A stretch of 29,446 nucleotides of DNA from a virus. The position numbers and the translations under genes were made by a program. Numbering within the stretch: position 1 is the stretch's first letter; each line of letters opens with the position of its first letter. Below, piece by piece: positions 4,320-27,831 of the stretch. The notes beneath the pieces are model-generated. The model made no database searches, was not told where the DNA came from, and saw only the letters and a list, made by a program, of their open reading frames with translations. Location of the stretch: positions 1-29,446 of the IMG/VR virus record IMGVR_UViG_3300009378_000037, one strand, 5' to 3'.

Positions 4320-4348
4320 ATTATAATCTATTTTTTGTTGTTTGTCAA
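4320..4348 (-). promoter_or_regulatory. Consensus sigma70-like promoter for the 87-residue gene, 5' nuclease and perhaps helicase
   Basis: Sense strand reads TTGACA, 17 bases, TATAAT, a perfect match to both hexamers. It overlaps the end of the upstream cargo gene and lies 25 bases before the ATG at 4295. Confidence 0.88.
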
Positions 4349-5008
4349 GTGTTCTTTTATGGCCTTTTCGGCAATCTTTGCAACTGCCCATCTAGAATTT
4401 CGAGATAAGCCCTTATAAGTCTCCAGATGTTCAGATACCTCTTTAAAAACAAATGGGCGACGCTTAACACGACTCATAAATTCTGCCTCTTCTCCGCCAG
4501 TAAAATCGCCAACAGGCTCTTTTCTGCCCAAGCCAGGCCAAGCTTCATTGGTTCCTAGCAAATAAGCTTCTCTCCCTCCACGTGGAATAATCAGCACCGA
4601 ATCTTGACAAAACATTGCCGATAACGATCCTAAAGTGTCAGCAAATTTTGGATCATCTGTATAATTTACAACAAAGAAGCTCTCTTCAGCAACTTCTATA
4701 GATGGGTGCTTCTTTTTATCTTTTGAATTAAAATTCTCAATATAAGAGCCATCTATTGTAGTTACACCAAATCCCTTTTTCAGCAAAATAGCTCGCAGAG
4801 CTCTATTCCTTTCAAAATTGACATCCGCATCTTCATCCTTTTCTGTCCCTATTGATGGAACATCAAGCACACATTGGTGACGTGAACGCGGCGAATTGCG
4901 GTGTCCTGTGATAATTGCAGACTCGTGTTCTGAAATGTGTTGGTGTATTCTGCTCAGGCCGGATTCTCTGATATTTGATTTCTTCCAGTTTTCAATTATT
5001 TTCTTCAT
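4328..5008 (-). CDS. Unknown protein with putative capsid-targeting leader; DUF3293-like body
   Basis: 226 residues. The N-terminus MKKIIENWKKSNIRE matches the neighbour's leader (K2, E6-N7-W8) and carries I13-R14-E15, an (L/I)-x-E site like those cut by T4 prohead protease gp21. The body has NRALRAILLKKGFGVTTIDGSY near 68-89, VAEESFFVVN near 106-115 and MFCQDSVLIIPRGGREAYLLGTN near 132-154. This order recalls the DUF3293 family (N-R-x-L-R helix, G-G-x-Y, E-x-S-F, then QDSVL). That match is from memory and moderate. The ATG at 5008 overlaps the previous stop (ATGA) and follows GGAG. If the leader is real, the protein would be packaged with the DNA and injected. Function is unknown. Confidence 0.75.
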   Translation of the reverse strand: MKKIIENWKKSNIRESGLSRIHQHISEHESAIITGHRNSPRSRHQCVLDVPSIGTEKDEDADVNFERNRALRAILLKKGFGVTTIDGSYIENFNSKDKKKHPSIEVAEESFFVVNYTDDPKFADTLGSLSAMFCQDSVLIIPRGGREAYLLGTNEAWPGLGRKEPVGDFTGGEEAEFMSRVKRRPFVFKEVSEHLETYKGLSRNSRWAVAKIAEKAIKEHLTNNKK

Positions 5009-5538
5009 TCTTGGTCTCCGTAAAAATCATCAGCTAACTTAGTGGCAGGGACTTTCTCCCACAGAGCCACTATCGTAGTGTCTGGATCTTTGTCCTGCGG
5101 ATAGATAAACCCTTTCATTCCATGCTTTCGTGAAGCCATGGTGGCCACCATTTCAAATGTATTTACAGGATAATATTTGGGCTTCTTTGTTTCTTTCTCT
5201 CTTATCTCCAAGTACTCTTTTTTGCTGTCCGGGAAGGATAGCTTTAGAGGATCTTCGTAGATTGGGTACAGCTCGGAACTCTTTATTTTTACTTCGTAAG
5301 CATGCTCTCCTTGTATCTTGCCGACACCTGCATCTTCTTGCGACATCTGTGTAAAATAAAAAACTCTTGGACGATCCCAGGCTCGGTACTCTGCTTTCGT
5401 GTAGTTCTTTAAATTCTTGGCGGCTATTTCTGGATCTAATTCGGTAATGTCTGGCGATGATGATATATGATACAAGATCATTTCATCAGATTCTTCTTCT
5501 TGGAGGTAACTGTTCCAATTCTCAAACAAATGTTTCAT
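5005..5538 (-). CDS. Putative capsid-packaged protein, ADP-ribosyltransferase-like fold (tentative)
   Basis: 177 residues. The leader MKHLFENWNSYLQEEE has K2, E6-N7-W8 and L12-Q13-E14, a plausible prohead-protease site. After it, ILYHISSSPDITELDP (21-36), RVFYFTQ (58-64), YEVKIKSSELYPIY (81-94) and a C-terminal KGFIYPQD/TTIVALWE pattern resemble small ADP-ribosyltransferase-like phage proteins (YH-S start, then a short beta strand with F-Y-F). No complete R-S-E or H-Y-E triad can be assigned by eye. T4 packages an ADP-ribosyltransferase (Alt) in its capsid, so this could be an analogue. A TAAATAGT late-type element lies 19 nt upstream of the start, between uvsX and this gene. RBS GAGAGGA is well placed. 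The gene is certain, the fold is a guess. Confidence 0.75.
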   Translation of the reverse strand: MKHLFENWNSYLQEEESDEMILYHISSSPDITELDPEIAAKNLKNYTKAEYRAWDRPRVFYFTQMSQEDAGVGKIQGEHAYEVKIKSSELYPIYEDPLKLSFPDSKKEYLEIREKETKKPKYYPVNTFEMVATMASRKHGMKGFIYPQDKDPDTTIVALWEKVPATKLADDFYGDQE

Positions 5539-5556
5539 TTTTTATCCTCTCGGACA

Positions 5557-5564
5557 TAAATAGT
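5557..5564 (-). promoter_or_regulatory. Late-type element TAAATAGT upstream of the putative cargo pair
   Basis: Sense ACTATTTA, immediately after the uvsX stop and 19 bases before the ATG at 5538. It shares this octamer with sites before neck, sheath and tape-measure genes. Confidence 0.5.
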
Positions 5565-5566
5565 CT

Positions 5567-6703
5567 CTACTTATCGTCTTTGTCGGTAGGATCTTCATAA
5601 AAGTCGGCTGCTTTGCCTTCTCGCTTGTCGAACTTTTGGACGATATGTTCTTCTACAATCTCGTGTATTAATGCCTTGAACTCTGGCTTAGCCATTTGCT
5701 TCATCCAAGTTCCTGGTTGGAATTTAATGTGTTTGTCGGTGTCCTCGTCGATATGATACCAGCTTCCCCTACTGCACACCCTCTTAGAGCCCTTTATTGC
5801 TTCAAATAGGCTTTCGTCATTTTGGATGCCGATATTGTCTGTTCCCCAGAGAATTTTGAAAAAGCAATTTCGACCTTGTGTCCCAAAGCGTGATTTCTCA
5901 ATCTTACATTTTACTTCTGAGCCTATTCGAAATCCATTCTCATCTTGAACAAAGGCAGCCTTTGATTTACGACCTGTAAGCCATATGCGCAATGAGTATG
6001 AATAATGCAAAGCCTTGCCACCGGGAGTGACATACGGAGTCGTCATTACAATCTGTCGCGCCATCGGCCCCTGTGGAATGTTTGTTTTCAACTGGTTTAA
6101 TATAAGCAGAGTTGCTTGTCTGTCGGCAAGTGGTATGATAAGTTTTGACATTCCTTTGGCAAGAATACGAGCTTTTACTGCGACAGAAGATTGAGGATTG
6201 AAGTCACCTTCCACATCTGAGATTGACGGCGTGAATGCCAACGAATCCCAAATGAAAACCATCTGTTCCTCTGATGCACCTAGTAAGTCTTCTATTGTCT
6301 CTAGGACAAACTCAACTGACGATGCTTGAATGTACATCAGGCGCGACAAGTCGCAGCCAGAACGTTCTAAAAAGTCTGGATCGATGGCCGACTCAGAATC
6401 AAAATAAACAACGATTTTATTCATTTTTTGGGCGTTGGCGGCGATTTGGGCAGCCATGTAACTTTTACCGGTAGATGTAAGTCCTGCCAACTCACTGACC
6501 TTCCCAACTGGAATACCGGACATCTTACCCTTGCAAATAATAGAATCTAGCCATCGGCTGCCGGTCGGGATCCATTCCTTGACTTCTGTGGGGTTGTTGC
6601 CCGATAGATCGTGGGCAACATCTCTACCTGCCTTCTTATTGACAAGTTTCATTAGGTCTTTCATTGACACCCGACCGGCTTTAGTTTCTTTTTTCTTACT
6701 CAT
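5567..6703 (-). CDS. uvsX: UvsX/RecA-type strand-exchange recombinase
   Basis: 378 residues. It should coat single-stranded DNA and drive strand invasion for recombination-dependent replication and repair. The core shows Walker A GLTSTGKS at 74-81, catalytic glutamate E104 in FDSESA, Walker B MVFIWDSLA with D153, and an L2-like region around VTPGGKALHYSYS. The C-terminus is acidic (DFYEDPTDKDDK), as in RecA-family proteins. Length is close to T4 UvsX (about 390). The ATG at 6703 overlaps the dam stop by four bases. Its first ten residues, MSKKKETKAG, share an identical 27-bp coding stretch with the end of the tail-tube gene, which is odd. Confidence 0.92.
   Translation of the reverse strand: MSKKKETKAGRVSMKDLMKLVNKKAGRDVAHDLSGNNPTEVKEWIPTGSRWLDSIICKGKMSGIPVGKVSELAGLTSTGKSYMAAQIAANAQKMNKIVVYFDSESAIDPDFLERSGCDLSRLMYIQASSVEFVLETIEDLLGASEEQMVFIWDSLAFTPSISDVEGDFNPQSSVAVKARILAKGMSKLIIPLADRQATLLILNQLKTNIPQGPMARQIVMTTPYVTPGGKALHYSYSLRIWLTGRKSKAAFVQDENGFRIGSEVKCKIEKSRFGTQGRNCFFKILWGTDNIGIQNDESLFEAIKGSKRVCSRGSWYHIDEDTDKHIKFQPGTWMKQMAKPEFKALIHEIVEEHIVQKFDKREGKAADFYEDPTDKDDK
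6675..6701. repeat. 27-bp dispersed repeat, uvsX copy
   Basis: Identical over 27 bases to 19991-20017. Here it encodes SKKKETKAG right after the UvsX initiator methionine. Confidence 0.9.
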
Positions 6704-7560
6704 TGAATCTTCCCTATCATTAAAATCTCTCTTGCTTTCTTGGCCTCAAAGCCATCAGTAGTCTTCTTTCGCCTTCCTGCTGTATAAGTTACATCAAAAT
6801 ATACCATATCATTCTTTCCCACTCTTTCCTCAAAGAAGTTGTCTCCTACGTCTCTATTACTCATCATAGCATGTGCTCCCCTTGAAGTCAAGTCATTTAA
6901 GAAAGATATAACTTTTTCTTGGATTTCGTCATCAAAGTCGACGCCATACTTCGTGAAAGAGCCGCGATAAGGTGGATCAAGGAAAGCATAAGTGTTTGAT
7001 TTAACTTCGCCCAAAGTGTCGGCAAAATCACCCGACATAAGCTTGCACCGTTTTAATGCCGTGTGCCATTCCAATACGTTGTCCTTGTCATAAACTTTGT
7101 CCTTTTGATTCAATAGCCCAGAGGGAGTACCGAATCTGCCATTTGTGTTATTGTTGATCTGCCAGATGCCATTAAAGCCTGTCTTCATCAAGAAATATAA
7201 GGTTGCAGATTCTTTGATTGCAGACCATTCAGCATAGTGGTATGCATGTTGATCTCTAAGGTTATAATAATACTTTTTTCGTTCTGGTTTATCTAGAGGT
7301 AGAAATTCGGATTGATAGTTATCCATTACTTCCATAAACTCTTCTGGGTTCTGTTGTATGGCTCGATATATATTCATGATCGATTCATTGATATCATTTA
7401 AAACAAAAGTTGCCTCTGGGTTCTGCTTATATGCCCACACAAACATGGCTCCTGCGCCAAAAAACGGCTCAATATAGTGTTCAAATGAGTCGGGGAGATG
7501 TTCTTTGTACTTCTTGAGCATTTTGGTCTTTCCACCTGCCCACATAAATAATGGTTTCAT
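6700..7560 (-). CDS. dam: Dam-like DNA adenine-N6 methyltransferase (D12 class)
   Basis: 286 residues. It transfers a methyl group from S-adenosylmethionine to adenine, probably in a short palindromic site such as GATC, though the specificity is inferred. Landmarks are MWAGGKTKML at 6-15, motif I EPFFGAGAMF at 31-40, LNDINES at 54-60, FNGIWQINNNTNGRFGTP near 129-146 and the catalytic DPPY at 195-198. The length is normal for the family. The ATG at 7560 follows AAGGGTGG. It overlaps uvsX by four bases. In phages such enzymes protect the genome against host restriction. A terminator lies upstream, so it probably has its own promoter in 7561-7625 or is read through. Confidence 0.92.
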   Translation of the reverse strand: MKPLFMWAGGKTKMLKKYKEHLPDSFEHYIEPFFGAGAMFVWAYKQNPEATFVLNDINESIMNIYRAIQQNPEEFMEVMDNYQSEFLPLDKPERKKYYYNLRDQHAYHYAEWSAIKESATLYFLMKTGFNGIWQINNNTNGRFGTPSGLLNQKDKVYDKDNVLEWHTALKRCKLMSGDFADTLGEVKSNTYAFLDPPYRGSFTKYGVDFDDEIQEKVISFLNDLTSRGAHAMMSNRDVGDNFFEERVGKNDMVYFDVTYTAGRRKKTTDGFEAKKAREILMIGKIQ

Positions 7561-8708: not shown

Positions 8709-9593
8709 TTACCCCTCTAATGTATCACCATTCAACGAGCTTGTCAAGTGGTTTTTTTGTTTTTGTGTCGCATTTGTATTAGCCACGACAAAGCCAAAGT
8801 CTTGTTTGTGTTCGGTGCCATAAATGGCATACGAAATGTGCTTAAAGGCATTTTTTGGTTTATTCTTCAAAATATCTACTAGCCTTCGGTGGAGTCCACC
8901 ATCAGTCTCAAGAGCCTCATCTCTGATACATATATAATAACACATATCTCGCGAGTTGTCAAGGTCAAATAGCCATTTTTCTTCTAAAGTTTTTGGATTT
9001 AATATTCCAATTGTTCTTATTCTGTTAATGTCGTTGGGCTTCGATATAACACCTATCTCTGGATCAGCATGAGTGAAATAGTTGTAATAATGAACAGTCG
9101 AAAAAATTGAATTATTGATCGTATCAAAATATGTTTTAATGGGCACTTGTCCAACAACCTCTTCAACTTTTAAATTGGAAATAAGAGTCACAGATGACAA
9201 AAGGCCAGATCTTGCGTACTCCTGTAATACACCAAAGACTGCTTGCTCTACTAGTCTCGGCATTCCTGTTAAAAGTTCTGTGTCTGGTTTAATGTAGAAT
9301 ACTTCTATTTTTTTATTTTTAATCTGCTCAAGTATTCCCAAAACATAGTTCGAACTAAACGAGGAGCCAACAACGAACACTTGTACGTGATCGTTAATGT
9401 CGGTAAAAAACTTAGTGAGGTCGGGGATGTTCTTTTCATAGTCCTCTGGGTTTGCATATGTTTTTAGTTTATATTTCCTCTTCGACGACCGAGCTACAGA
9501 ACTGCTCATTTGATATACATCGTAGTTGCTCGTTGAGTTGAACTTTTCAGCAATCGCTGAGGCACCGTTGCCTATTCCGACTATTGAAATCAT
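8709..9593 (-). CDS. Divergent FtsZ/tubulin-like protein lacking the canonical GTP signature (tentative)
   Basis: 294 residues. The N-terminus ISIVGIGNGASAIAEKF (2-18) looks like the first nucleotide loop of FtsZ/tubulin. QVFVVGSSFSSNYVLGILEQI at 71-91, followed by KIEVFYIKP, LTGMPRLVEQAVFGVLQEYARSG, VTLISN and a FDTINNSIFSTVHYYNYF helix, follows the FtsZ order: the GGGTGTG strand-loop, next strand, long helix, I-x-N and the central helix. However, the GGGTGTG signature is replaced by GSSFSSN, so GTP hydrolysis is doubtful. The start ATG overlaps the PolA stop (ATGA) and follows GAGGT. Alternatives are another Rossmann-like sensor protein. The position between PolA and SSB suggests a replication-linked role, which is inference. 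Confidence 0.75.
   Translation of the reverse strand: MISIVGIGNGASAIAEKFNSTSNYDVYQMSSSVARSSKRKYKLKTYANPEDYEKNIPDLTKFFTDINDHVQVFVVGSSFSSNYVLGILEQIKNKKIEVFYIKPDTELLTGMPRLVEQAVFGVLQEYARSGLLSSVTLISNLKVEEVVGQVPIKTYFDTINNSIFSTVHYYNYFTHADPEIGVISKPNDINRIRTIGILNPKTLEEKWLFDLDNSRDMCYYICIRDEALETDGGLHRRLVDILKNKPKNAFKHISYAIYGTEHKQDFGFVVANTNATQKQKNHLTSSLNGDTLEG
8719..8747 (-). promoter_or_regulatory. Sigma70-like promoter of the SSB gene
   Basis: Sense strand reads TTGACA, 17 bases, TACATT. It overlaps the end of the tubulin-like gene and gives an untranslated leader of about 50 bases before the SSB ATG at 8659. Confidence 0.65.
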
Positions 9594-10777
9594 ATATCCA
9601 ACCTCGTGAAGTCTAAATAGTTCTCTCCAATATTTAGATTAACTTTAAATGATCCAAGTTTATTGACAGAAAATGCCTCTTGTATTTCGGGAACAAGATA
9701 ACGATCCTCTTCAGCTAAATCAACAACTATCTCGTCATGAACAATGTGGGAAATAAAACTTTTCTTGTTCGCTAGTAGCTCGTCTATTGCAACAGCACGC
9801 CCTAATACCAAATCAGAAGTTGTACTCTGAATTAGATAATTAAATGACCTACGCTCATCTATTTTAATGTGTCTGTTCATTGGAGTGCTAATATAACCAT
9901 CTTTGTACCACTTGTCAAGTAATTTCTCACGGTCATAAACACCTGCGGCGGTCGAATCAGAATTATAGTCATAGAGCCACGCAAAAAACTTTACTTTAGC
10001 GGCCTCACGGTCAATCTTACGGTCTCTAAAAATGTTTTCCATATTCCACTCGTGGATATCTTTTTCTGGCTGGTCAACGCCCAGTAAGCCAAGCACAGTG
10101 CGTGCCTCTGCTCCATTGTAATCTAGAGATAAGAACCATCTATTGTGGGGGCGAATTAAAGCACGAAAGTCTTTCTTCATTGTTAGAATCGGACAAGAGC
10201 CAGTTTTTGTAGTTAGCCTACCGGTGACAGTTCCAAATAGATTATAGTCAATGTGTTTGGGGCCATTCATAAACTCACGAGCTTTTGTGCGAGTGTTATA
10301 GCCAACAAATAGGTTGCGGGCTTTAGAGCTATCGAAATTTAGATTCTGGTATTTTATCTTATAGAGTAATCTCTCTATTGATGCTAAATGATCGTAGTTG
10401 GCGGGGCGCTCGTAGTTGTCAAAAGCGTGTTGTGTGACTTTATTTTTAATCTCGCAGAACTCTGTTAAGAAGTCATGAGGCACAAGATCATAAAAACAAT
10501 GTTCTCGCAAGTTGATACGGCCAAGCTGAAAAGATTTAAGATATGCCCTAAATGTACGTTGGATGCGACTGACATCTTCCTTTTGTTCTTGTGAGCAAGC
10601 GTCCTCTAGTGTCTTTCCGTTAACATAAAGCCAAGCATATTCAACACTTGAATCCGTTATCGACGGAGTATATCTCCATGTTTTCGTTAAATTGGCTGGT
10701 ATGTGGTCAAAGTGCAATTGTCCATCAACATAAATTCCAACGCAATCTGATTTGTCGTCTAGTGTTTGAAATATCAA
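9590..10777 (-). CDS. polA: Family-A DNA polymerase, polymerase domain only
   Basis: 395 residues. Motifs of Pol I polymerases are clear: TGRL at 185-188, motif A LSLDYNGAEAR with D219, motif B R257-x3-K261-x3-F265-x3-Y269 (matching R754/K758/F762/Y766 of E. coli Pol I) and motif C IVHDE with D348. Phe at the 762-equivalent position is the type that discriminates against dideoxynucleotides. The N-terminal ~150 residues are too short for, and show no motifs of, a 3'-5' exonuclease, so proofreading would need a separate protein. The start is TTG at 10777, overlapping the previous stop (TTGA), with GGAGG seven bases upstream; no other start exists before the conserved region. Most T4-like phages carry a family-B polymerase instead. 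Confidence 0.9.
   Translation of the reverse strand: MIFQTLDDKSDCVGIYVDGQLHFDHIPANLTKTWRYTPSITDSSVEYAWLYVNGKTLEDACSQEQKEDVSRIQRTFRAYLKSFQLGRINLREHCFYDLVPHDFLTEFCEIKNKVTQHAFDNYERPANYDHLASIERLLYKIKYQNLNFDSSKARNLFVGYNTRTKAREFMNGPKHIDYNLFGTVTGRLTTKTGSCPILTMKKDFRALIRPHNRWFLSLDYNGAEARTVLGLLGVDQPEKDIHEWNMENIFRDRKIDREAAKVKFFAWLYDYNSDSTAAGVYDREKLLDKWYKDGYISTPMNRHIKIDERRSFNYLIQSTTSDLVLGRAVAIDELLANKKSFISHIVHDEIVVDLAEEDRYLVPEIQEAFSVNKLGSFKVNLNIGENYLDFTRLDI
9612..9638 (-). other. Inverted repeat containing a TAAATAGT octamer upstream of the tubulin-like gene
   Basis: TCTAAATA at 9612-9619 and TATTTAGA at 9631-9638 are perfect 8-bp arms with an 11-base loop, inside the last codons of polA. The octamer at 9614-9621 lies 21 bases before the next ATG (9593). 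It may be a hairpin, a late promoter or both. Confidence 0.4.
9890..9918 (-). promoter_or_regulatory. Possible internal promoter inside polA
   Basis: Sense strand reads TTGACA, 17 bases, TATATT, inside the polymerase coding region and about 300 bases upstream of the tubulin-like gene. Good match, but within coding sequence. Confidence 0.35.
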
Positions 10778-11970
10778 GGTTCCTCCGAACGTGCGTTTAT
10801 TCTCCTTACAATATAACTCAACGAACCCGATTTGTCAAATGGTTTGTTGGCTATTCTTTCAAACACAAACAAAGAAGCTTTTATTCCCTTATTGTCATAC
10901 AATTGAAGAGTGTCAGACAATAGTTTTATTTTATCTTCTTTCGGCATTGTTCCTTCTTCTTCAATAAGTCGCAACTTACAATATAATTCTAACATATTCC
11001 GTTCAGAAAAATGTTTATTCAAGCTCTCCGATGTATAAGTCAATGGTTTTTTGTAATGTGTGACAACTTTGCCAGCACATTCAGAAGTAAATGTGACAGT
11101 TTTTTTGATAGAGTTGTGATATATGTCTCGAATACTGATAACAAACTTGTTAAATGAACTTAAATAAGAAGAATTATAAGACGACCACAGAACAAGATCT
11201 GTTTCTGACTGGTCGTATTTGGCTGCATACTGTTGCATCTGCTTGGAGCCTATGTCGGCGACCAATCGCCAAGGATGAGATTTGTCTACCATAAATCCAT
11301 ATGTGGTGCAAGCATTTAAATAAAACTCCCAATTGGGGCTATTGATAAACTTATTAATCTTTTCACTGTCGTCAGTGGATTTGAGATTGGCTATATCAAT
11401 GACTAAGCCGGATACATTCATTGGGCATCTACGACTTTTAATATAAGATATCTTGGTCAAAGGCACTGATTCTAACGAGCGCGTAAAAACGGGAATCAGT
11501 GCGGTCGTGAATTCTGTAAAGTTCATTATTTGAGGGTTTCTTCTTTTTATCTCTTTCGATAATATGTCGACATGCAAATTGTGGTAACTGCTGTATTCTT
11601 TGTTGATGTCCTGATAGCCTTTAAATGCCCGTAGTGATGTCAAGAATGGATCTTGGGTGCCTATTTCGCCAGACAAAGATTTTTTATCGAATTGTCTAAC
11701 TAAATCTGAAAAAGCATCGGCCACAAAATTCAACACACGAATATCTCGATTTCCAGAAACTGATTTAATCGACTTGAGCCTTCGTTTGTTGACTATTTCC
11801 AGTGGCACATTGAATCTATCTACACGACCATATAGCAGTTTTTCGCCAAAGTTAAAATCAGTCAGAGTTGAGTATTTTTCTCTATGGCTCTGTAGCGTAT
11901 CGTTGTATATCACTCTTTCATCAAATAATTTGATTGTCTTTTCGGCATTATTCTTTTTGTATTTGGCCAT
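10774..11970 (-). CDS. Unknown phage protein, possibly virion-associated
   Basis: 398 residues from the ATG at 11970, which forms a TGATG junction with the preceding stop; a TTG one codon earlier is possible. The body is mixed helix and strand, Lys/Ser rich, with no membrane segment or signal peptide. A distinctive stretch around residues 215-255 (NSPNWEFYLNACTTYGFMVDKSHPWRLVADI) recalls conserved unassigned proteins in structural regions of marine T4-like phages; that is memory, not a search. It ends by overlapping the PolA start (TTGA), so it is translationally linked to baseplate genes upstream and to replication genes downstream. I find no nuclease motif that would make it the missing proofreading exonuclease. 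Confidence 0.8.
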   Translation of the reverse strand: MAKYKKNNAEKTIKLFDERVIYNDTLQSHREKYSTLTDFNFGEKLLYGRVDRFNVPLEIVNKRRLKSIKSVSGNRDIRVLNFVADAFSDLVRQFDKKSLSGEIGTQDPFLTSLRAFKGYQDINKEYSSYHNLHVDILSKEIKRRNPQIMNFTEFTTALIPVFTRSLESVPLTKISYIKSRRCPMNVSGLVIDIANLKSTDDSEKINKFINSPNWEFYLNACTTYGFMVDKSHPWRLVADIGSKQMQQYAAKYDQSETDLVLWSSYNSSYLSSFNKFVISIRDIYHNSIKKTVTFTSECAGKVVTHYKKPLTYTSESLNKHFSERNMLELYCKLRLIEEEGTMPKEDKIKLLSDTLQLYDNKGIKASLFVFERIANKPFDKSGSLSYIVRRINARSEEP

Positions 11971-14900
11971 CAACTTTTACTCACTACTTCTTTTGAATTC
12001 TGTATGCTGCACCAAGAGGGGGCATTAGTTGTATCCTTTTCCGAAACATTGTCCAATTCAGTGTGCACTTTGGGCGTTATGCTAGCAACCCATTTGGCCG
12101 ATATTGATGTCTCTGCTCTTCCAGGACCAAAACTGTGCTCTGATCGCACTATCATGTGGTAGCCACCAATGCCTATTTGTGTCAAATCTGCCCTTGATCT
12201 GACAGACGGAGAAAAGCCGGCTGGATCTACATATATGTATACCCCAGGATATGCATTGACATTAGTGAAAGTCTTTATATCAATATCATAGACCTCTCTT
12301 AACTGACTAAGGCCATCATAACCATCTTGTTCGAATCTCAGCTCTTTGAGACCAGTTGAGTCAGTCCTCTTTAAATTGATTGCTTTTACTATTCCTCTAT
12401 CCTTTCCCACAGAATAATGAAATATGCCTCGTGAGTGATCTCTAACAATATTACCATTCATTTTCTCTGATGGCTGGGAGCGGCCAGCATAATAAGCTAA
12501 ATAGTTGATCTCTTCACCGACAGCACCCGACGAAGCAGGGCTGTTTACTCTGCCAGAGATATTTCTTAGCAATGGTCGACTACTCATTACATCACCTAGT
12601 GTAAGTCGATTCTTCCAGTCTATGGGCCATGGGCCTGGACCCAATGTAAGGTCAGTTATTTCATCTACGCCAGTCGATCTATTTTTGTACGAAGTCAAGG
12701 AAGCTTGGCTAACTCTTGTTCTTTGCTTTGCTTGACTGCCAAAACATTCTTCCTCATTCAGAAATTCGCGAATAAGATTATTAAAGAAATCATTCAAAAA
12801 TTTGGGCAATGGGTAATAAGATTCACCTCGTTTGGCCATTTTGCGAGACATCCACTCAGTGAAATATTTTATCGAAATAGGCAAGTCCCCCATAGAAATC
12901 AAGATAGTTTTATTTATATCTGATTGGTCTTTAATCTCTAGTGGGCCCAACAGGACACGCAGTTTTTTAAATTGTGTCTCCATTTTTCGGACATTCTCGG
13001 CTTCTTCTTCTAAAATGGCATCAACTGCTGCTCCATGGATAATCTGACCAGTAGGTGTTTTTAGAATTTCACCCGGATCCTTTGACAAATTAGAGATAAA
13101 GTTGGCCATATGATCTTTGCCATATGTGGTGCCTATATTTTGCAATATGACATCGATTAGATCGCTAACATAGAAGAACGGAACTGTTTGTATGTCGTCT
13201 GTGTCTTCTGTGGCTATAGACTTAAAGCTTTCTAGTCTCTTTTCATTGTCGCCTAAGTCATTCTCAATTATAGCTTGACTCATTGAATTAGCTAGATCTT
13301 CCGTGTCCGTAGGTGCGGGAGATGAGAAATCACTTGATGTCAATGCATCTTCCATTTTATAAAACGGACCTTGACGTAGCATTTCTCGTACCTGTTTATC
13401 GGTGATATCAACAAATCTTATTTTACCATTAGAGGATAAATCTGTCACGATGGAGGCAAGGCTTATTTTCTTGTCATCATCTATTTCCGAAGCAGATGAC
13501 TTCTTTAATTCTTGGCGGTGCTCTGATTCGCATTTCTCGGAAAACACTTTTGTTTTGATTTTTCGAACCAGGCGGCGCTTCTCTGGCTCAGTACTTGAAA
13601 ATATATTAAATGACGGCTGATCAAAAAAGTCTTCAACATAAGCTAGATATTGAATCTTAAATACGACTCTTCCGTTTTCATCAATGTCAAAGTCATGAAC
13701 AGTTGGGGTTAAATTTAACGTAACATACGAATTATATATAGCGTCTTTTACTTCGCTTCTTATGATGCTCCTACCGGATCCAGAATAAGAAGTGTCCTTG
13801 GCTTTGCTTGCCCAGCCAACTACTGCCTTAAGGCGGAAGTCAAGTTTATCTAAATTGTTTGACAATTCTTCATTATTTTGTGCTTTAGTGGCAGATGCTT
13901 TTGAAGCTGACGAACGACCTGTCTTAAGAGCCAAATCAACATATTTGAAAGTGCGATTACGGCCTGTTTGCCTTTCAGTTAGCAACTCATCAAAGTCATT
14001 TGCAAAAATAGATAAAGAAGCCTTTATGCTCTTCTTGAGGGCAAATGGGTTATCCGCCTCATAAGAAAAAGTAAAATCTTGTATACCGACGCCAGCGCCA
14101 CGCTTAGTGCGATCCTTAAATAAAGCTAGATCTCTCTTTGTAAAATAAGAGTCGAATGGTATTTCAAACTCCTCCTCTGTTCCATCGGCATATGCTTTTA
14201 TCTTATATAACCTAATCATCGGCTGTAGGTTTGAAATCTCGCTTGTTTTGATATTCAGTAGATCTCCGTAACCCGGAAATTGAGTTAAGTGGTTCATGAA
14301 CGCAAACGGATCACCTTCAACCTGTAGACATGCGTTATGTTCTGCCCTCACCCAGTCAGAGCCCGGCAACGATGTATATGGCATCCTCTTTGCCAAGTTT
14401 GTCTTATCTAGTATGCCAACTTTGTAATGTGCAAAAGCAGGTATCTGTGACAGTAGGAAACACTGTTCTTTGAAGAATGGGGGGAAAGTGCCGGCAATAA
14501 ACTCAGATAAAGCCTCTCCTGATGTAGCGTTCGCCCTTTCAACGGCGATGTCGGCGGCTCTTCTTGCAGATTCCACATCGTCCTCTGTTACGTCCCAGTT
14601 CCAAGGCATAAAATTAAGATTTTGACGGCGGGAAGTGCTTTTTGCTTTGGCCTCTGCTGATTTCGCCGCATCAGTAGCGTCTTGGTGTAACTTCTTCGCA
14701 AGAATGTTAATTTCACGAGACTGAGACTGAGCTGCACGCAGAATCTTCAGCTTTTCATCATCTATTGGAACAGCACTTTTAGTGACTTTGATGACTTGAC
14801 GAATTTCATGAACTGTTTTCAGACTATCATAATCAGGATTACCTACATCCCACCACTGGCTACTCGATAATTCAGGAACTTTCTGTAAATTGGTTTGTAG

Positions 14901-16394: not shown

Positions 16395-18782
16395 TTATTG
16401 TGCTCCTATGGCCTCTGCCATAACTTGAGTCGCGCCGTCTTTAATTAGTTGTTTTGTCTGGGTTGCGTCTAATACTAATCTGACATTCCACTTGGGCGAA
16501 GCACTTATGGAAGAATTCGATGAGCCCGCCTGCTTGGGCGAAGCACTTATGGAAGAATTCGATGAGCCCGCCTGCTTGGCATTGCCAATAGCAGCTGTGG
16601 TCTTCATAACAGTTGATATGCTGATTGCTTTGTTGGTCTCTATCGAGTTTACGGCGGCGGCTATCTTTCCTATTTCTGCTGCTACTTTACCTAATTTGGA
16701 AAAGCCTCCTAGTGTACTTAGCGAGTCAAACATCGCAGCAAGACCTATTGTTGCCGATTCTACGCCTTCTCCCATCATCCAGGCCGCAGCACCAACTCCC
16801 AACAGTAAACCAACTGCAAGACCTATTACGATAGCTTGAGGGCCAGCGCCGGCCATCATCAATAGTCCGAACAAAGCCCCAACACTAACCGAAAAGGCTA
16901 CAATTCCGGCCACTGCTGGCCAAGCTGCTTCACCTAGTCCACTAAATGCCGAGACGAGGTTACCTACACCTGTTGCTGCGAAATATATGGCTCCACCTAT
17001 GGCGACAGCCGCAAGTGCCGTGGACAGTAACGAAAGGTTCCAGCCTTTAGAAACCTTTGTTGCTTTTTGTTTCGCTGCAGTGGATGTTCTTATTGCCCCT
17101 GTGTTTGCTTTGGTTCTGGCAGTGGATGTTCTTGTTGCTGCTGTGGATATACCAGTGGTTGCTGTGTCAGCTGCCTGTGCTGATGTGCGCTGAATAATAG
17201 CGGCAGCTGATTTTATGGTTTCTTTTATGTATTCTCGCTTTGCCTTGGTAGCAAACCAGATCTTGACGCCCAATACAGTGGTGGCGGTGGCGGCGACAGC
17301 CATACCAATCGCCAACAACTTAAGGTTGTCTGCTATCATTTCTACGATTGGCACAAATTTTAAGCCAAAAACGATAGCCCTATTGACAACTGCATTCCAG
17401 CGTTCAGAGATGCTGGCATTCTTTTCTGCTTCTTTTTGCAGAGCTATCAATTCTTCTGCGGTTTGGTTGGTTGCACCACTAAGAGAATCCATATCACCCG
17501 ATAACATCATCGCAAGCTCGCCAACATCTGAAAGCCCAAGAGCCTCTTTATAATAATTCTTTTGATAATAGCTCATGTCATCAAAACTTAGCCCAGCGTC
17601 CAGTATCGAATCTCGTATCATTCCGAATCTTTCTGCTGGATCAGTGGACATCATCAGATCCATTGCATTGACGAAGTTTCCGCCAAGGGCAGCATTTAAT
17701 TTTCCTGCTTGGGTAGCAGCACCTTCAAATGTATCAAATTTGTTTGTCATTTGAGTAATTTTATCTATCTCAAAACCAGTTATCTTGGCCGCATGCGCCA
17801 AATCTTTAAACGATTTGACTCCACGTGAGCCCATTTTAGCCAACATATCGCCTGATTTTGCAAAATCGCCTGCCATTTTCTTGGGGGCTACTCCCAACGC
17901 TTTCGCGAAAGTGACCATTTCTCTCTGAGTTGTTCTGGCCTGTTTTGTCGTTTGCCCAAGTGCCTTATTTGACAGTTGAATACCTTTAGTGAAATCTTCG
18001 TTAGAAACTCCAAGTTTTTCCAAAGTGGATCCCAGTATCACAAGGGAATCACGCTGTTCTTTTGCCAGCATAGTAAAATCTGTGAACCCTGAGTGTAGTG
18101 AGGTCATAGATTTCGAAACATCCTCTAGCGATACAGTGTATTTCAGCATCTCAGCGGCGGAATCTCTTATACTAGAGGCAAATGCGTTTGAGGCTCCAGT
18201 GGTGCGACGAAAAGCAGCTTCAGCATCAACCAAAGCAGTCGCAAATCCAACCATTCCTGTTACCAAATTTGCCATCATGGTAGGAGCAGACATGGCGAGG
18301 CTTGTTACCAAAGATTTCCAGTCGCGAAAGCCCAGTACTATTTTCTTCACAAGAGGGATAACAGTTGAACCTGTTTTATACTGTGATTGTAGTGCACTAG
18401 TCATCGCTGTCCCCAGTTCTTTTCCGGCAGCAGCAGACTCTCTCATAACACGCACTTTGTGTTCTTCTAGGGCAATCGACTCTTCTTGTTTCTTGATCTG
18501 GTCCTCTAAAGCTTGTAGGGCGGCTTCGTCCATAGAGCCCTGCGCTTTCATTTCTGATAGCTGGAGTACATGGCCATCAAGAAGCTTCCTTTGAGTAAGA
18601 AGTTCTTGTTCTTTTATCTTCTCCATCTTCTCTTGATAGCTCATTAACGTTGAGAAGCTTTTAGTCATATTGGCAAACTGTTGTGCAGTCTTTTCAGACA
18701 GCTCGTTAATAGATTCTTTTGCTTTTAATATTTTCTTCAAGACTTCCAAGTTATCGTTTTCGTTGTTATCTTCTGGTGGCAC
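16395..18782 (-). CDS. Tail tape measure protein
   Basis: 795 residues from GTG at 18782, chosen because GGGGAAAG lies about 8 bases upstream and because a TAAATAGT late-type element at 18810 would start transcription between the two candidate starts; a TTG at 18806 would extend it by eight residues. The N-terminal 120 residues are coiled coil (KKILKAKESINELSEKT, QEKMEKIKEQELLTQ, DQIKKQEESIALEEHKVRVM). The middle is helical with a long ATT/TST low-complexity stretch. Two or three hydrophobic segments follow (LKLLAIGMAVAATATTVLGV; AVAIGGAIYFAATGV; AFSVSVGALFGLLMMAGAG). Near the C-terminus a 14-residue unit, KQAGSSNSSISASP, is duplicated. It sets tail length during assembly; at about 1.5 angstrom per residue the tail would be near 120 nm, a rough estimate. 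Confidence 0.88.
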   Translation of the reverse strand: MPPEDNNENDNLEVLKKILKAKESINELSEKTAQQFANMTKSFSTLMSYQEKMEKIKEQELLTQRKLLDGHVLQLSEMKAQGSMDEAALQALEDQIKKQEESIALEEHKVRVMRESAAAGKELGTAMTSALQSQYKTGSTVIPLVKKIVLGFRDWKSLVTSLAMSAPTMMANLVTGMVGFATALVDAEAAFRRTTGASNAFASSIRDSAAEMLKYTVSLEDVSKSMTSLHSGFTDFTMLAKEQRDSLVILGSTLEKLGVSNEDFTKGIQLSNKALGQTTKQARTTQREMVTFAKALGVAPKKMAGDFAKSGDMLAKMGSRGVKSFKDLAHAAKITGFEIDKITQMTNKFDTFEGAATQAGKLNAALGGNFVNAMDLMMSTDPAERFGMIRDSILDAGLSFDDMSYYQKNYYKEALGLSDVGELAMMLSGDMDSLSGATNQTAEELIALQKEAEKNASISERWNAVVNRAIVFGLKFVPIVEMIADNLKLLAIGMAVAATATTVLGVKIWFATKAKREYIKETIKSAAAIIQRTSAQAADTATTGISTAATRTSTARTKANTGAIRTSTAAKQKATKVSKGWNLSLLSTALAAVAIGGAIYFAATGVGNLVSAFSGLGEAAWPAVAGIVAFSVSVGALFGLLMMAGAGPQAIVIGLAVGLLLGVGAAAWMMGEGVESATIGLAAMFDSLSTLGGFSKLGKVAAEIGKIAAAVNSIETNKAISISTVMKTTAAIGNAKQAGSSNSSISASPKQAGSSNSSISASPKWNVRLVLDATQTKQLIKDGATQVMAEAIGAQ
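16491..16574. repeat. Perfect 42-bp tandem duplication in the tape measure gene
   Basis: Two identical 42-bp units (16491-16532 and 16533-16574) encode KQAGSSNSSISASP twice, in frame, near the protein's C-terminus. The identity suggests a recent event. Confidence 0.95.
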
Positions 18783-18809
18783 GTATTTACTTTCCCCGTA
18801 GTTCAAAAA

Positions 18810-23706: not shown

Positions 23707-24585
23707 TCAGGATGTGAAGTTGTAAAAGCCATCGGAGTCTGGCAGTATTATTCCCTCTTGTGGATATGAGATTTCCACTATATTCTCCTCAACTTTGACT
23801 ATAGGGCGATCATCATTCAAACCCTCGCCTACCAAGTATCCTAAAACTCTAATTTTAACTTCTGATGTGAATTCTCTGGCGTCTTCTCCAAGATTGGCTG
23901 AGTTGTTATTGTGAGAGATTCCCTGTTCTATGAAGCCTTCATATAGATGGCCGCTTTGACGCATAACAAATCCATTAATTTGACCAGTCCTGCCGAGGAA
24001 AGGAGCTATAAGATCATTCATTTGCTGTTGATAGTCTGATTTGATTGATATCTTATATTCTACATTGATGTATATCGGTATAGGAATAGACAATGTTTTG
24101 ATGACAACCTTTCGATTGACACGTGGTGACCACCGCTGAATCGATCCTGATATGCTTGTGCGTGGTCCGGCTACGGTAGCGAAATTTCGAGTCTTGTCGT
24201 CGACTATTTTGCGAGCTATGACCATACGACCGGTTCGTCCGTTCTTTTTGGCAGAAAACGTTTGGGCTTGGAACCCGCCTTTTCTTGCAGGATCTTTTGT
24301 TATTCCTGTTCTCTCGATGCTGACCAGTGGCAGCTTTAAATTACCAGCATCATCACGCAAATCTTTATTGTGTTTAATTTGAAATGCTCTCTCTGGAGCT
24401 TGCCAAATAACAGGGACTTTTTTGAAGCCATCATTTGATACCGTACTTAAGTCTAGGTCTTCACTTAACCACTTCTGTATAGCTCTATCAATATTCTCTA
24501 TATCGGAGGCTAACATACCTATCTCAGAAAGCCTCAGATCAATTCCGGCTGGTAACATGGCAAAATCAAAATTATCAGGTAGCAT
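23707..24585 (-). CDS. 15: Tail terminator / sheath stabiliser (gp15-like)
   Basis: 292 residues from the ATG at 24585, preceded by AAAGGGA and overlapping the previous gene by 11 bases; a longer frame to 24651 would overlap 77 bases and adds no conserved residues. The pattern GFKKVPVIWQAPERAFQIKHN...LKLPLVSIERTGI, followed by VIKTLSIPIPIYINVEYKISIKSDYQQQMNDLIAPFLG, matches the layout of T4 gp15 (RVPITYAS..., LPRINL..., PIKMIYELSIFTRYEDDM...). It should cap the tail and join it to the neck. A basic stretch at 120-165 (KKNGRTGRMVIARKIVDDKTR) is longer than in T4. Confidence 0.72.
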   Translation of the reverse strand: MLPDNFDFAMLPAGIDLRLSEIGMLASDIENIDRAIQKWLSEDLDLSTVSNDGFKKVPVIWQAPERAFQIKHNKDLRDDAGNLKLPLVSIERTGITKDPARKGGFQAQTFSAKKNGRTGRMVIARKIVDDKTRNFATVAGPRTSISGSIQRWSPRVNRKVVIKTLSIPIPIYINVEYKISIKSDYQQQMNDLIAPFLGRTGQINGFVMRQSGHLYEGFIEQGISHNNNSANLGEDAREFTSEVKIRVLGYLVGEGLNDDRPIVKVEENIVEISYPQEGIILPDSDGFYNFTS

Positions 24586-25070: not shown

Positions 25071-26357
25071 TTATCCTACAAAGATTGGCAAAGGGGAGTG
25101 CTTGAATAGATCTGCTGCCGTTTCGGCGATCTCTGAGTCTGCTTTTGCCAATTCTTTATATGTGACAGAATCTAATATTTCCATCAACTTGTCTCGCAGT
25201 TGTTGTTGCTCTTCTTTTGCTTGTAACAAAAGCTCTGAGTGATTTAGTGTTACGCTTTCGCCAGGAATAGGTATTGTCGTAAACTTGCCGCGAATCTGAC
25301 CCAGCATCTCTTTGCACAAGGCTAGGGCGTACTTTCTAATCCATTGTTTACCAATAGCGTTAATGTTTCCAAACGGAATATTATCAAACGGAATAGTGTT
25401 TAGATTGTTCACTCCATTGACGCCATCCTCGTATCTATCATTGGAGTCCCAAGCATTTGCTCCGTCAATATAGAATTCTACCCACATACGATCTTGTTCG
25501 GTGAAGCCCCAAAAGCTAGGATTGGGATATAGTCTTAAAAAATTATCTTTAATCTCGTAGGCATAATGTGATGTTCTCGTGTATATGGAATCTTCGTACA
25601 TGACAGCTTGTAATTTATTTTGCCATGTCGGAACAACCTCAAAAGTAGAGTCGTCGGCAAATTGGCCATATGTTCCCATGTTGCCTACCACGCCAACACC
25701 ACCATAGTAGCCGTAGAATCGCCACATAGCACGAGGAGATTTGTAATGAACCTTAGTGACTACTACACGTTTATTTCCAACAGCACCGGAGAACGGGACG
25801 GCATTACCCTTGACATCAACACCAGAATCTGATGCACTAATGATAATACTCTGTAGGTCATAATCTTGTTGATTTACAACCACTCCAAAGGAGGCAGAAT
25901 ATATTCTTTCTGTGCCACCGTAGCCGCCAATGGTGGCCAGTCCATCACCGACCTTCCGAGCCTGTGCGTAATTAAATCTAGGGTACTTTAAATTTACATT
26001 TGAGCCACTTAAGCTGTCACCATCAGAAAAGTTTCCAAGGTGATCAAACGTTCCAGTCGCATTGCCAAGGGTGCTGCCCAGCATATTCTTGCTTTGGTGT
26101 AAATTGATTATATAAGAATATTCTAATACTGCCTCTTCGTATGCAGCATAGACATTAGATGGAGTCATCTCTATGTCTACAACGTCGCCGCCAAGTTTTT
26201 TGTAAACATAATCTACTTGAAGGGCAGCGCCATTTAGAAAGTCTTGAGAGCCTGAATAGATCCCAAATGGAACAGCGGCTGCAACATCTCCTACGGTTCC
26301 TGTAGCTGGTAATATTATTGAGTTTGTAGTTGATGATGGGGACAAGCTTGTTGGCAT
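25071..26357 (-). CDS. 13: Neck protein (gp13-like)
   Basis: 428 residues. The C-terminal third (FDNIPFGNINAIGKQWIRKYALALCKEMLGQIRGKF...IPIPGESVTLNHSELLLQAKEEQQQLRDKLMEIL, ending SPLPIFVG) is characteristic of neck proteins in distant T4-like phages. The N-terminal region is Ser/Thr rich and glycine-rich loops sit in the middle (GYYGGVGVVGNMG). Gene order gp13-gp14-gp15-sheath-tube as in T4 supports the assignment. The ATG at 26357 follows AAGGAACC, and a TAAATAGT element lies 31 nt upstream, marking a likely start of the late transcript after the endonuclease gene. Confidence 0.78.
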   Translation of the reverse strand: MPTSLSPSSTTNSIILPATGTVGDVAAAVPFGIYSGSQDFLNGAALQVDYVYKKLGGDVVDIEMTPSNVYAAYEEAVLEYSYIINLHQSKNMLGSTLGNATGTFDHLGNFSDGDSLSGSNVNLKYPRFNYAQARKVGDGLATIGGYGGTERIYSASFGVVVNQQDYDLQSIIISASDSGVDVKGNAVPFSGAVGNKRVVVTKVHYKSPRAMWRFYGYYGGVGVVGNMGTYGQFADDSTFEVVPTWQNKLQAVMYEDSIYTRTSHYAYEIKDNFLRLYPNPSFWGFTEQDRMWVEFYIDGANAWDSNDRYEDGVNGVNNLNTIPFDNIPFGNINAIGKQWIRKYALALCKEMLGQIRGKFTTIPIPGESVTLNHSELLLQAKEEQQQLRDKLMEILDSVTYKELAKADSEIAETAADLFKHSPLPIFVG

Positions 26358-26400: not shown

Positions 26401-27831
26401 CTATGACAAAAGCATCTCATAAATATTAGAACCGCAACCGTATATCTTAAACACCCCTGCTTCCTTTGCTACTTCTTTCTCTGGCTTGTTTGGTTGAGCA
26501 CGATATGTAAATCTGTTGAATCTAGTTCTGCCGTCTGTATACCAATAGTCTGCTTTGGTTTCGCCTATAAGAGTGAAGCCTGTTTTTAAATATCCTTTAC
26601 CCTCGCCGAATCTTCTGTCGGCATAGGTTAGAATGCCATTGTATTTTTCTTGTCTCGCCCACTTTTTGGCTTGCTTTAGAAGTTTTGAAAGTCCGCCGAC
26701 GACAATTGTGTCGAGTTCCGATGAAAGGCGAGCAATTTCAATCATCTTTGCTTCTCGGTATTTGCGATGGAAAGATGTTCGCAGAGAGAGTGCCATCACG
26801 AGAGTGTCATGGTGATATAGGCCAAATGTGATCTTGCTGGGTGTGTTGCCCGATATGTGAGTTTTGTTGAAGAAGGTTTTTGAGTCTGTTCTTGGCACGA
26901 TTCTTGCAACACATTTGCGGGCAAAGATTCTCTCATTTGACTTACCTATTCGCTGGCGAATCATCGACTCTATTATCTCTTGCTTTTCTCGCCACTCGTC
27001 TGAGAAGATGTGAAAGAGTTGAATGTCTTGTTCTCTGCAGCTGTTTGTTTTATCAAAATGATATGTCTTGCCTTTACGTTCTTCTGAGTGCCAATATAAG
27101 CCGTTGTACTCAATAGCGAATTTGTGTTCTGGTAAATGTATGTCGAGCTCTTGTGGAGTGATGATGGAGCGAGTGTTGGACTGAAAGTTTTCAATTCCTG
27201 TTTCAGCGATGATCTTTCTTAAATCTCGTTCTGGTTTTGAGTATTTATTGATCGGATAACATTCGTGACAGAGGCTGCCTCGCTCTAAAGTTTGAAGGGT
27301 TCTCTCACAAATGGAGTTGCACTTGCGGCATTTACAAGAGATATATTGCTTTTGTCGTGATTCGTAGTCGATGTTGGTATAATCAAAGTGCCAATCATTC
27401 TCTCTTTCTTTGAGTCTCGTCAATAAAGTCTCTTTATCGATGCGACTGTTTGCTGTCATTTTGTCTATTGCTGTGGAGGTGTGTGTTTTGCCGTGGAACG
27501 GATTTCCGGTACCAGTATATTTCCTTGAACACTCTCTAAGTTTTGTTAGTGTCTCCTTTGTGTGACCTTTGTTCCAAGTTGTTTTAATCTTTCCACCTAT
27601 TCTGCCAGCTTCTGCTGCTGCCAGATTCGCATGTGACTTACAGTACTTCTTGAACATGAACGACACGTATCTGGTTTCGCTACCGCACTCTACACACATT
27701 GGCTGTGTGCTGTTATGGATGTATTTAATGGTGTAGTCTTTTGATTTTATTTTGTGACGGTGTTGGAGGTGTGTCGCAAGTGCTCGTGTAGATTTGAGCG
27801 TTTCATTACAAATAGCGCAGATAGTTGTCAC
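26401..27831 (-). CDS. Homing endonuclease, restriction/Vsr-like fold (EDxHD type) with zinc finger
   Basis: 476 residues, GTG start at 27831 with AAGGAG six bases upstream. Domains: a C2H2-type zinc finger at 5-26 (C5-x2-C8-x12-H21-x4-H26); a CxxC segment at 45-63; NUMOD3-like DNA-binding repeats (GRIGGKIKTTWNKGHTKET, NPFHGKTHTSTA) at 76-120; a zinc ribbon with C165, C167, C170, C174, C187, C190; and a nuclease core with KPERDL near 198, D229, E240-Y-N-G-L-Y-W-H247 and FHIFSDEW at 272-279. The C-terminal ~150 residues look GNAT-like (GLYHHDTLVMALSL, IEIARL, YADRRFGEGKGYLKTGF). It interrupts the otherwise continuous capsid-neck order and probably spread by homing. Confidence 0.85.
   Translation of the reverse strand: MTTICAICNETLKSTRALATHLQHRHKIKSKDYTIKYIHNSTQPMCVECGSETRYVSFMFKKYCKSHANLAAAEAGRIGGKIKTTWNKGHTKETLTKLRECSRKYTGTGNPFHGKTHTSTAIDKMTANSRIDKETLLTRLKERENDWHFDYTNIDYESRQKQYISCKCRKCNSICERTLQTLERGSLCHECYPINKYSKPERDLRKIIAETGIENFQSNTRSIITPQELDIHLPEHKFAIEYNGLYWHSEERKGKTYHFDKTNSCREQDIQLFHIFSDEWREKQEIIESMIRQRIGKSNERIFARKCVARIVPRTDSKTFFNKTHISGNTPSKITFGLYHHDTLVMALSLRTSFHRKYREAKMIEIARLSSELDTIVVGGLSKLLKQAKKWARQEKYNGILTYADRRFGEGKGYLKTGFTLIGETKADYWYTDGRTRFNRFTYRAQPNKPEKEVAKEAGVFKIYGCGSNIYEMLLS

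Follow-up and report, generated by a model that had tools for sequence, protein, structure and literature searches.

A shared leader predicted to direct two adjacent proteins, one of the SAM-lyase family, into the head of an uncultured T4-related phage

We analysed a 29.4-kb virus record (IMG/VR IMGVR_UViG_3300009378_000037, positions 1 to 29,446; this whole stretch of 29,446 nucleotides is called the window below) from a phage of an uncultured group represented by environmental DNA only, which, judged by its gene content, is a T4-related contractile-tail phage. Two adjacent genes on its minus strand, gene A (5005-5538; an open reading frame (ORF) of 177 amino acids) and gene B (4328-5008; 226 amino acids), encode proteins that carry a similar short leader at the N terminus. 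The comparisons described here, together with the analogy to the internal proteins of T4, make it quite probable that A and B are the genes of a late operon whose products are counter-defence enzymes that are packaged in the head, trimmed by the prohead protease, and injected. For both products, we infer from sequence comparison that they are packaged, trimmed, and injected, and likewise which activity they have and what they act on.

A preliminary description of this DNA had pointed to two adjacent ORFs with a common leader, and both were found, on the same strand and with the gene B start overlapping the gene A stop by ATGA (5005-5008). The resemblances that it listed, K2 and E6-N7-W8 followed by an (L/I)-x-E tripeptide at residues 12-15, were recovered as well: M1, K2, E6, N7, and W8 are common to the two proteins, and the tripeptide is L12-Q-E14 in gene A (MKHLFENWNSYL-Q-E14) and I13-R-E15 in gene B (MKKIIENWKKSNI-R-E15). 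Residues 1-14 of gene A (MKHLFENWNSYLQE; 5497..5538, minus strand) constitute a predicted head-targeting propeptide, with a cut after E14 suggested by the leader consensus and the cut-site statistics, and residues 1-15 of gene B (MKKIIENWKKSNIRE; 4964..5008, minus strand) a predicted propeptide cut after E15, as suggested by the boundary motif in relatives. The bodies are unrelated, as had also been described. That of gene A (residues 15-177 and the stop codon; 5005..5496, minus strand) had no Pfam or PHROG match and is predicted from a structure model to adopt an ADP-ribosyltransferase (ART)-like fold, and that of gene B (residues 16-226 and the stop codon; 4328..4963, minus strand) is assigned to the S-adenosylmethionine (SAM) lyase family by a Pfam match, a fold match, and active-site residues.

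The shared leader is, as far as sequence comparison goes, a real module common to unrelated bodies in related uncultured phages. Its consensus is MKxxxENWxxx(Y/F)LxE or, written more fully, MKLLxENWR(K)(Y/F)LxE. A search for the leader in other proteins and in relatives, which the preliminary description had proposed, was positive: the codon pattern for M-K-x3-E-N-W turned up 23 times, spread over 9 of 13 related viral records, and the reversed pattern not once. A similar pattern was present in at least 119 stretches of the viral collection, and the 80 loci examined contained 105 pattern matches, including 9 that open ORFs of <45 amino acids and 17 that run off the locus. When these 80 loci were combined with earlier loci, the leader was found to start at least 103 proteins of at least 60 amino acids, belonging to at least 67 body clusters (BLAST, E<1e-4; proteins of <60 amino acids and duplicates were left out). 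The search pattern itself fixed M1, K2, E6, N7, and W8, and the remaining leader positions were unselected. These were also kept among the 67 cluster representatives, namely R9 in 48, Y/F11 in 56, L/I/V12 in 60, and E14 in 50, and conservation was near background from about residue 14-16 onward.

Proteases of the gp21 type cleave after [L/I]-x-E. An [LIVMF]-x-E motif ending at residues 12-19 was found in 62/67 representatives, as against 11/67, 12/67, and 8/65 at control offsets (Fisher 3e-20 for the first of these). Near gp23, the leader is real by its sequence pattern but rare: in 80 gp23-selected loci, a looser regular expression matched 5/1368 candidate starts, 1/1368 shuffled ones, and 0/3493 internal ones. 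No common leader form was significantly enriched within the phages CPt10 (8/298 candidate starts versus 13/718 internal controls) and Mel-JY01 (4/552 versus 24/1526), and we therefore do not claim that each phage has a matched tag of its own. A 20-amino-acid leader query had no match among 50,697 phage records. Judged by title and start of abstract, none of the papers listed in a literature search describes the leader or a packaged SAM lyase, and we make no wider claim than that. What is new here is the leader consensus and the SAM lyase as a predicted packaged cargo; the principle is known from the T4 internal proteins.

Gene neighborhoods, located with the head genes of leader phages, link the leader to the head. 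In relatives, leader genes are found repeatedly within the terL-portal-gp21 head block. In 9/80 loci (L060, L069, L084, L086, L088, L099, L135, L138, and L078, where the contig ends within the leader ORF), a conserved 179-amino-acid-type gene downstream of portal is immediately followed by the leader gene. Four of these loci (L060, L086, L088, and L099) extend further, and in them, as in L329, gp21 lies shortly beyond the leader gene. In L118 and L126, the leader gene is the next one after gp21, and in L067 and L103, it immediately precedes terL. Of the 10 leader-bearing contigs of >100 kb that were tested, 8 had an S77 prohead protease (G003, G012, G014-G017, G020, and G021), or 7/9 without G014, which counts by virtue of a doubtful match lying on gp23; the protease was not found in the other two, G018 and G019. 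It was also present in 12/16 contigs chosen by the closeness of their gp23 to that of the window, including the closest one (73% identity). These phages are distant from T4, since all 249 of 249 matches of the gp23 of leader phage G003 to phage records fell below 60% identity. The gp23 prologue of leader phages contained KWExTGLLEG and an LL[RK]E site in 7/7 cases read, and in contig G003, MDAWRKFLTEA occurs among the first 25 residues of the protein adjoining gp21. The gp23 of L095 (contig G014) starts with MKELLENW, which may be due to chance because E14 is missing. For phage IBB_35, which has a gene B homolog (YP_009590826.1), 38 virion proteins are reported in excerpts of PMC3322345.

A shared candidate promoter element would place the pair with late transcription units. 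ACTATTTA (5557..5564, minus strand; TAAATAGT on the plus strand) lies on the gene strand, 18 nucleotides upstream of the gene A ATG. Its copy count, its position, and its occurrence in relatives make it a candidate for the late promoter of the A-B operon. The window contained six copies of TAAATAGT, all on the plus strand, with 1.15 expected and none of 100 shuffles reaching six. The corresponding ACTATTTA copies are at 5557, 9614, 12498, 18810, 23648, and 26388, and five of the six lie 3-50 nucleotides upstream of gene starts, those of gene A and the tail sheath gene among them. In G003, ACTATTTA occurred 25 times on one strand and twice on the other (a slight overcount, as the pieces overlap). 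We then counted ACTATTTA within 70 nucleotides upstream of orthologs, which were taken from the window, from G001 and G003, and from additional loci, each upstream sequence being counted once. The element preceded 48/58 gp22, 42/49 sheath, 38/73 connector (25071-26357 in the window), and 14/36 tube genes, as well as 3/10 orthologs of the gene at 16395 and 1/6 of that at 8709. It was also found before 3/8 gene A orthologs (the window's own included) and 4/15 gene B orthologs, together 7/23, compared with 0/42 for the helicase, exonuclease, uvsX, dam, gp32, and polymerase-region genes (Fisher p 3.5e-4). Across the 80 loci, it lay upstream of 13/92 leader genes and 53/772 other genes, a modest excess; its chance occurrence is ~0.2% per upstream interval. 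By these counts, ACTATTTA is a candidate late promoter for the phage group, conserved and biased to one strand. The A-B operon, though located in the replication block, thus shares the candidate late element of the structural units.

The preliminary description had also noticed a late-type element before the pair. This held in part: TAAATAGT lies on the plus strand and the genes on the minus strand, and its complement on the gene strand, ACTATTTA, is late-promoter-like. Accordingly, a T4-type late promoter, TATAAATA, was rejected for genes A and B, TAAATAGT being on the opposite strand; with up to one mismatch, the gene strand has TATAAATA sites at 5160-5167 and 5284-5291, inside gene A, and none between gene A and uvsX. 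As a separate observation, two proteins of contig G003 (L050 and L051), which start with MDKWFRYINE and MQKSTDMWFRYLKDD (1191 amino acids), show a W-F-R-Y-[LI] variant of the leader, and each has ACTATTTA upstream.

Gene B is a SAM-lyase-family protein according to its sequence and predicted structure, an identity that the preliminary description had overlooked. Pfam family PF23780 (S-AdoMet_lyase) matched with an E of 1.2e-8 and 35.4 bits, against a cut-off of 28. The structure model had a mean predicted local distance difference test (pLDDT) score of 69.6, and that of the N-terminal segment was under 50. In the VIA fold search, the top four entries were SAM lyases, including the T3 enzyme (8bb1_E; Z 9.5, root-mean-square deviation (rmsd) 3.2 over 123 residues) and Svi3-3 (6znb; Z 6.7), and the SAM-lyase matches started at model residue 13-26. 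G87, Y89, E108, and Q135 were invariant in 18/18 gene B relatives and the T3 SAM lyase, and E108 aligned with T3 E67, the neighbor of the catalytic E68. In excerpts of PMC7877911, G56, Y58, E69, Q104, and E105 are given as the ligand-binding residues of Svi3-3, and three amino acids are described as strictly conserved among active SAMases, T3 included; gene B G87-x-Y89, E108, and Q135 are equivalent to G56, Y58, E69, and Q104 of Svi3-3. E105 of gene B, invariant in a 10-sequence alignment (from which L243 and L247 were absent), was dropped as the candidate catalytic glutamate, as Mel-JY01 and CPt10 have N and V at this position. A comparison of the gene B alignment with sequences from the PDB gave nothing meaningful.

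The boundary between leader and body was also conserved among gene B relatives. [LIVF]-x-E directly preceded an S[SG]LSR body in 12/13 distinct viral-contig relatives with widely different leaders (leader starts being the nearest ATG, chosen by script; L248, which has no N terminus, was left out of the count), and E occupied the boundary column in 17/18 relatives. L020, which is on the same contig as L246 and has a stop within range, was kept out of the gene B alignments and included in these boundary and 18-relative readings. All five named phages read had the boundary, for example as ILGE in Mel-JY01, ALSE in the Alishewanella phage, and NFNE in CPt10 (Campylobacter); in Lak phages, it was INE before SSINR (Lak-B5) and LNE before KSLNR (Lak-A1). 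The T3 SAM lyase lacks this motif. We further observed a 655-amino-acid gene B relative with an ENW leader (L235:3001), in which another large region is joined to the SAM lyase part.

For gene A, modeling favors an ART-like fold. The structure prediction and fold search that the preliminary description had suggested gave a model of medium confidence (mean pLDDT 65.6) with ART-type proteins as best matches. The first 12 Foldseek matches comprised ParT, AcrIF11, RES/MbcT-type toxins, a Vibrio toxin (8gug), and diphtheria toxin, the best being ParT (E 5.9e-3, probability 0.98) and none having an E under 0.001. VIA likewise matched ParT (6d0i; Z 6.5) and 6kyf (Z 6.2, rmsd 3.7 over 111 residues), with diphtheria toxin and tankyrases lower down; 6kyf is AcrIF11, listed as an anti-CRISPR protein, which we take to be an ART. 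The proposal that one of the two bodies is an ART is thus favored, with modest Z scores; nothing in these matches places gene A with Alt, of which it had been suggested to be an analog. Gene A has few relatives: L223 and the near-identical pair L226 and L227 have ENW leaders, and L228 has an ENF leader. They were found partly via the leader pattern, by which leaderless relatives could be missed. Y23-H24 was invariant in five aligned gene A sequences, and no invariant catalytic Glu could be assigned when an H-Y-E or R-S-E triad was sought. Similar YH[IY]T segments start the bodies of two other leader proteins (L079 and L338). Gene A had no match in the phage collection, and PADLOC and NCBIfam returned nothing useful.

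The other bodies that carry the leader are diverse. Pfam and PHROGs were run on 56 of the 67 representatives, 11 being left out. Pfam assigned 23 families at E up to 0.01, with one member each, including Pkinase, Zeta_toxin, NUDIX, RNase_T, GNAT, DUF192, M23, tRNA_lig_CPD, S-AdoMet_lyase, and Gp23, and PHROGs, among the first 25 of 56 families, added deoxyribonucleotidase, endolysin-type, and tape-measure-type matches. According to excerpts of PMC9503650 and PMC5512222, it has been proposed that myoviruses package ART- and NUDIX-type enzymes in the head. A leader-bearing protein of 338 amino acids (L006:8941-9954) shows, by eye, a protein-kinase-like glycine loop and is a candidate injected kinase.

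In the mechanism that we propose, genes A and B would be transcribed late as one operon, and the amphipathic leader of 14-15 residues would direct each product into the prohead core. The T4 gp21-type (S77) prohead protease of the phage would then remove the leader after [L/I]-x-E, leaving a mature enzyme that stays in the head with the DNA and is ejected with it. On DNA entry, the SAM lyase encoded by gene B would destroy S-adenosylmethionine and thereby starve SAM-dependent restriction, and the ART-like domain of gene A would modify a host or defense target. A SAM lyase active during the whole infection would conflict with the cofactor need of the DNA methyltransferase encoded nearby (6700-7560, with uvsX between it and gene A); virion delivery would confine the action of the lyase to entry. 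That the leader is head-targeting and cut after [L/I]-x-E and that the cargo is injected, as the preliminary description had predicted, is favored by the comparative tests because the leader occurs on many unrelated bodies, recurs in the head block, co-occurs with the S77 protease, and is associated with the shared late-type element.

Several observations weigh against this mechanism. Genes A and B are placed between uvsX and the exonuclease gene, within the replication block. ACTATTTA was not found before gp21 (0/30), gp23 (0/77), portal (0/14), terL (0/12), the baseplate hub gene (0/30), or the genes at 23707 (0/58) and 24575 (0/63); structural genes without it may be downstream members of operons. 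The cut motif was missing in 5/67 leader representatives, the leader pattern was found in 0/5 named phages (Mel-JY01, Alishewanella phage Slickus01, CPt10, immuto, and RM378), and the exact pattern was patchy, with 2/16 among the closest gp23 relatives. No S77 gene was found in the near-copies of the window, G001 (53.6 kb) and G002 (40.9 kb), both of which are fragments, and we saw no virion proteomics for the clade. As for the proteins themselves, the fold matches of gene A all have Z <8, the level advised for the tool, so that a common arrangement is possible; for gene B, Foldseek alone was weak (best E 0.038), hhalign against the single T3 sequence gave a probability of 4%, and the exception among the 13 distinct relatives has K for E at the boundary. 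M23 peptidase, endolysin-type, and tape-measure-type leader bodies are not obvious effectors.

Some of these points would fit a leader that serves as a targeting or docking tag for another phage structure or a host compartment (tail, baseplate, membrane, or replication body) and is not removed by the prohead protease. Besides the position of genes A and B and the leader body with a tape-measure PHROG match, such a role is consistent with leader genes lying near the tail sheath gene (L083, L094, L104, and L120) or beside uvsX (L092 and L127). We nevertheless consider it unlikely: the conserved part of the leader ends at [LIVMF]-x-E, the specificity of gp21-type proteases, in nearly all representatives, leader genes recur within the terL-portal-gp21 block, and a position off the head cluster is also seen for the T4 internal-protein genes. 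Gene B could alternatively encode a cytoplasmic SAM or SAM-AMP lyase that is expressed in the infected cell like the T3 SAMase, its N terminus being just a structural helix of the family. The E-SSLSR boundary, kept as [LIVF]-x-E-S-S-L-S-R in relatives despite their different leaders, could indeed be conserved partly for folding or structure. A purely cytoplasmic lyase is nonetheless improbable to a similar degree, given that the same leader is found on dozens of unrelated bodies, that the gene B leader is modeled with low confidence and the SAM-lyase matches begin around its end, that T3 is without the boundary motif, and that the operon is preceded by a candidate late promoter. A chance or mechanical, biologically meaningless resemblance probably does apply to the 9/105 pattern matches that open ORFs of <45 amino acids. 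As an explanation of the leader as a whole, it was ruled out by the reversed-pattern control (23 versus 0) and by the 67 body clusters with conserved unselected positions, and its probability is practically negligible.

Taking the leader as a head-targeting propeptide, we think it fairly likely that one cleavable leader serves a large group of uncultured phages, with heads of the T4 type, as the common tag by which a modular, exchangeable set of injected enzymes is loaded; the tagged set proposed under this reading comprises SAM lyase, ART-like, protein kinase, NUDIX, GNAT, RNase T, and Zeta-like kinase proteins. If true, the virion-delivered lyase would be loaded in advance against SAM-dependent restriction, and possibly against SAM-AMP signaling, and the phage could block such restriction before expressing any gene of its own. 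A SAM lyase would then be deployed in a new way, as the T3 enzyme is known as an expressed early protein. Phage anti-defense genes are hard to recognize because their bodies are diverse, and a shared tag would allow a simple N-terminal motif scan; at least 67 unrelated candidate bodies are already at hand, mostly from one scan. ACTATTTA additionally provides a testable late promoter for the phage group.

Further features of the window are as follows. Likely ribosome-binding sites, read directly from the sequence, are GAGAGGA for gene A (5545..5551, minus strand) and GGAG for gene B (5016..5019, minus strand), the latter within the end of gene A. The gene content includes a Gp23 capsid protein, RecA, and DnaB (by Pfam), as well as a tail sheath, tail tube, head-tail connector, single-stranded DNA-binding protein, exonuclease, DNA polymerase, and DNA methyltransferase. 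In the region 9590-11973, the DNA polymerase appears as a separate short piece of 395 amino acids with a 399-amino-acid protein upstream, which suggests a split polymerase. Two genes with zinc-finger/HNH-like features, recognized by eye (727-1530 and 26401-27831), may be homing endonucleases, and an 803-amino-acid protein (16395-18806) has an in-frame tandem repeat (KQAGSSNSSISASP) close to its C terminus.

Gene A has a predicted fold in common with AcrIF11 and the ParT/RES toxins and differs from them in its leader and in a sequence identity of ~10-15%, with no match established for the catalytic residues. With T4 Alt, it would share the concept of a head-delivered protein of the ART superfamily, described in excerpts of PMC5512222 and PMC9503650; it differs in best matching ParT, AcrIF11, and RES-type proteins and in having no Pfam match. 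Gene B has the fold, PF23780, and active-site residues in common with the T3 SAM lyase (gp0.3) and Svi3-3. Unlike the T3 enzyme, it starts with a leader of 15 residues that includes a cut motif, and it belongs to an operon with a late-type element; the T3 SAMase is reported, in an excerpt of PMC8406200, to be the first viral protein made after infection.

The closest parallel to the system as a whole is formed by the T4 internal proteins. Like genes A and B, IPI, IPII, and IPIII have short N-terminal leaders starting with MK on otherwise unrelated proteins; IPII and IPIII start with MKTYQEFIAE and IPI with MKTFKEF, and the IPII and IPIII leaders reach I-x-E just as those of A and B reach [L/I]-x-E. 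Their genes lie away from the head cluster, as genes A and B do, and the T4 prohead genes 67/68, located between 20 and 21, have a position like that of the leader genes found between portal and gp21 in relatives. The leader described here takes the form MKLLxENWR(K)(Y/F)LxE in place of MKTYQEFIAE and thus differs from the T4 form MKT[YF]xEF; its bodies are many more and larger than the T4 internal proteins, in phages distant from T4. According to excerpts of PMC12373910 and PMC3012670, the leader is all that T4 Ip1-3 have in common, and these proteins, once injected, block GmrSD restriction.

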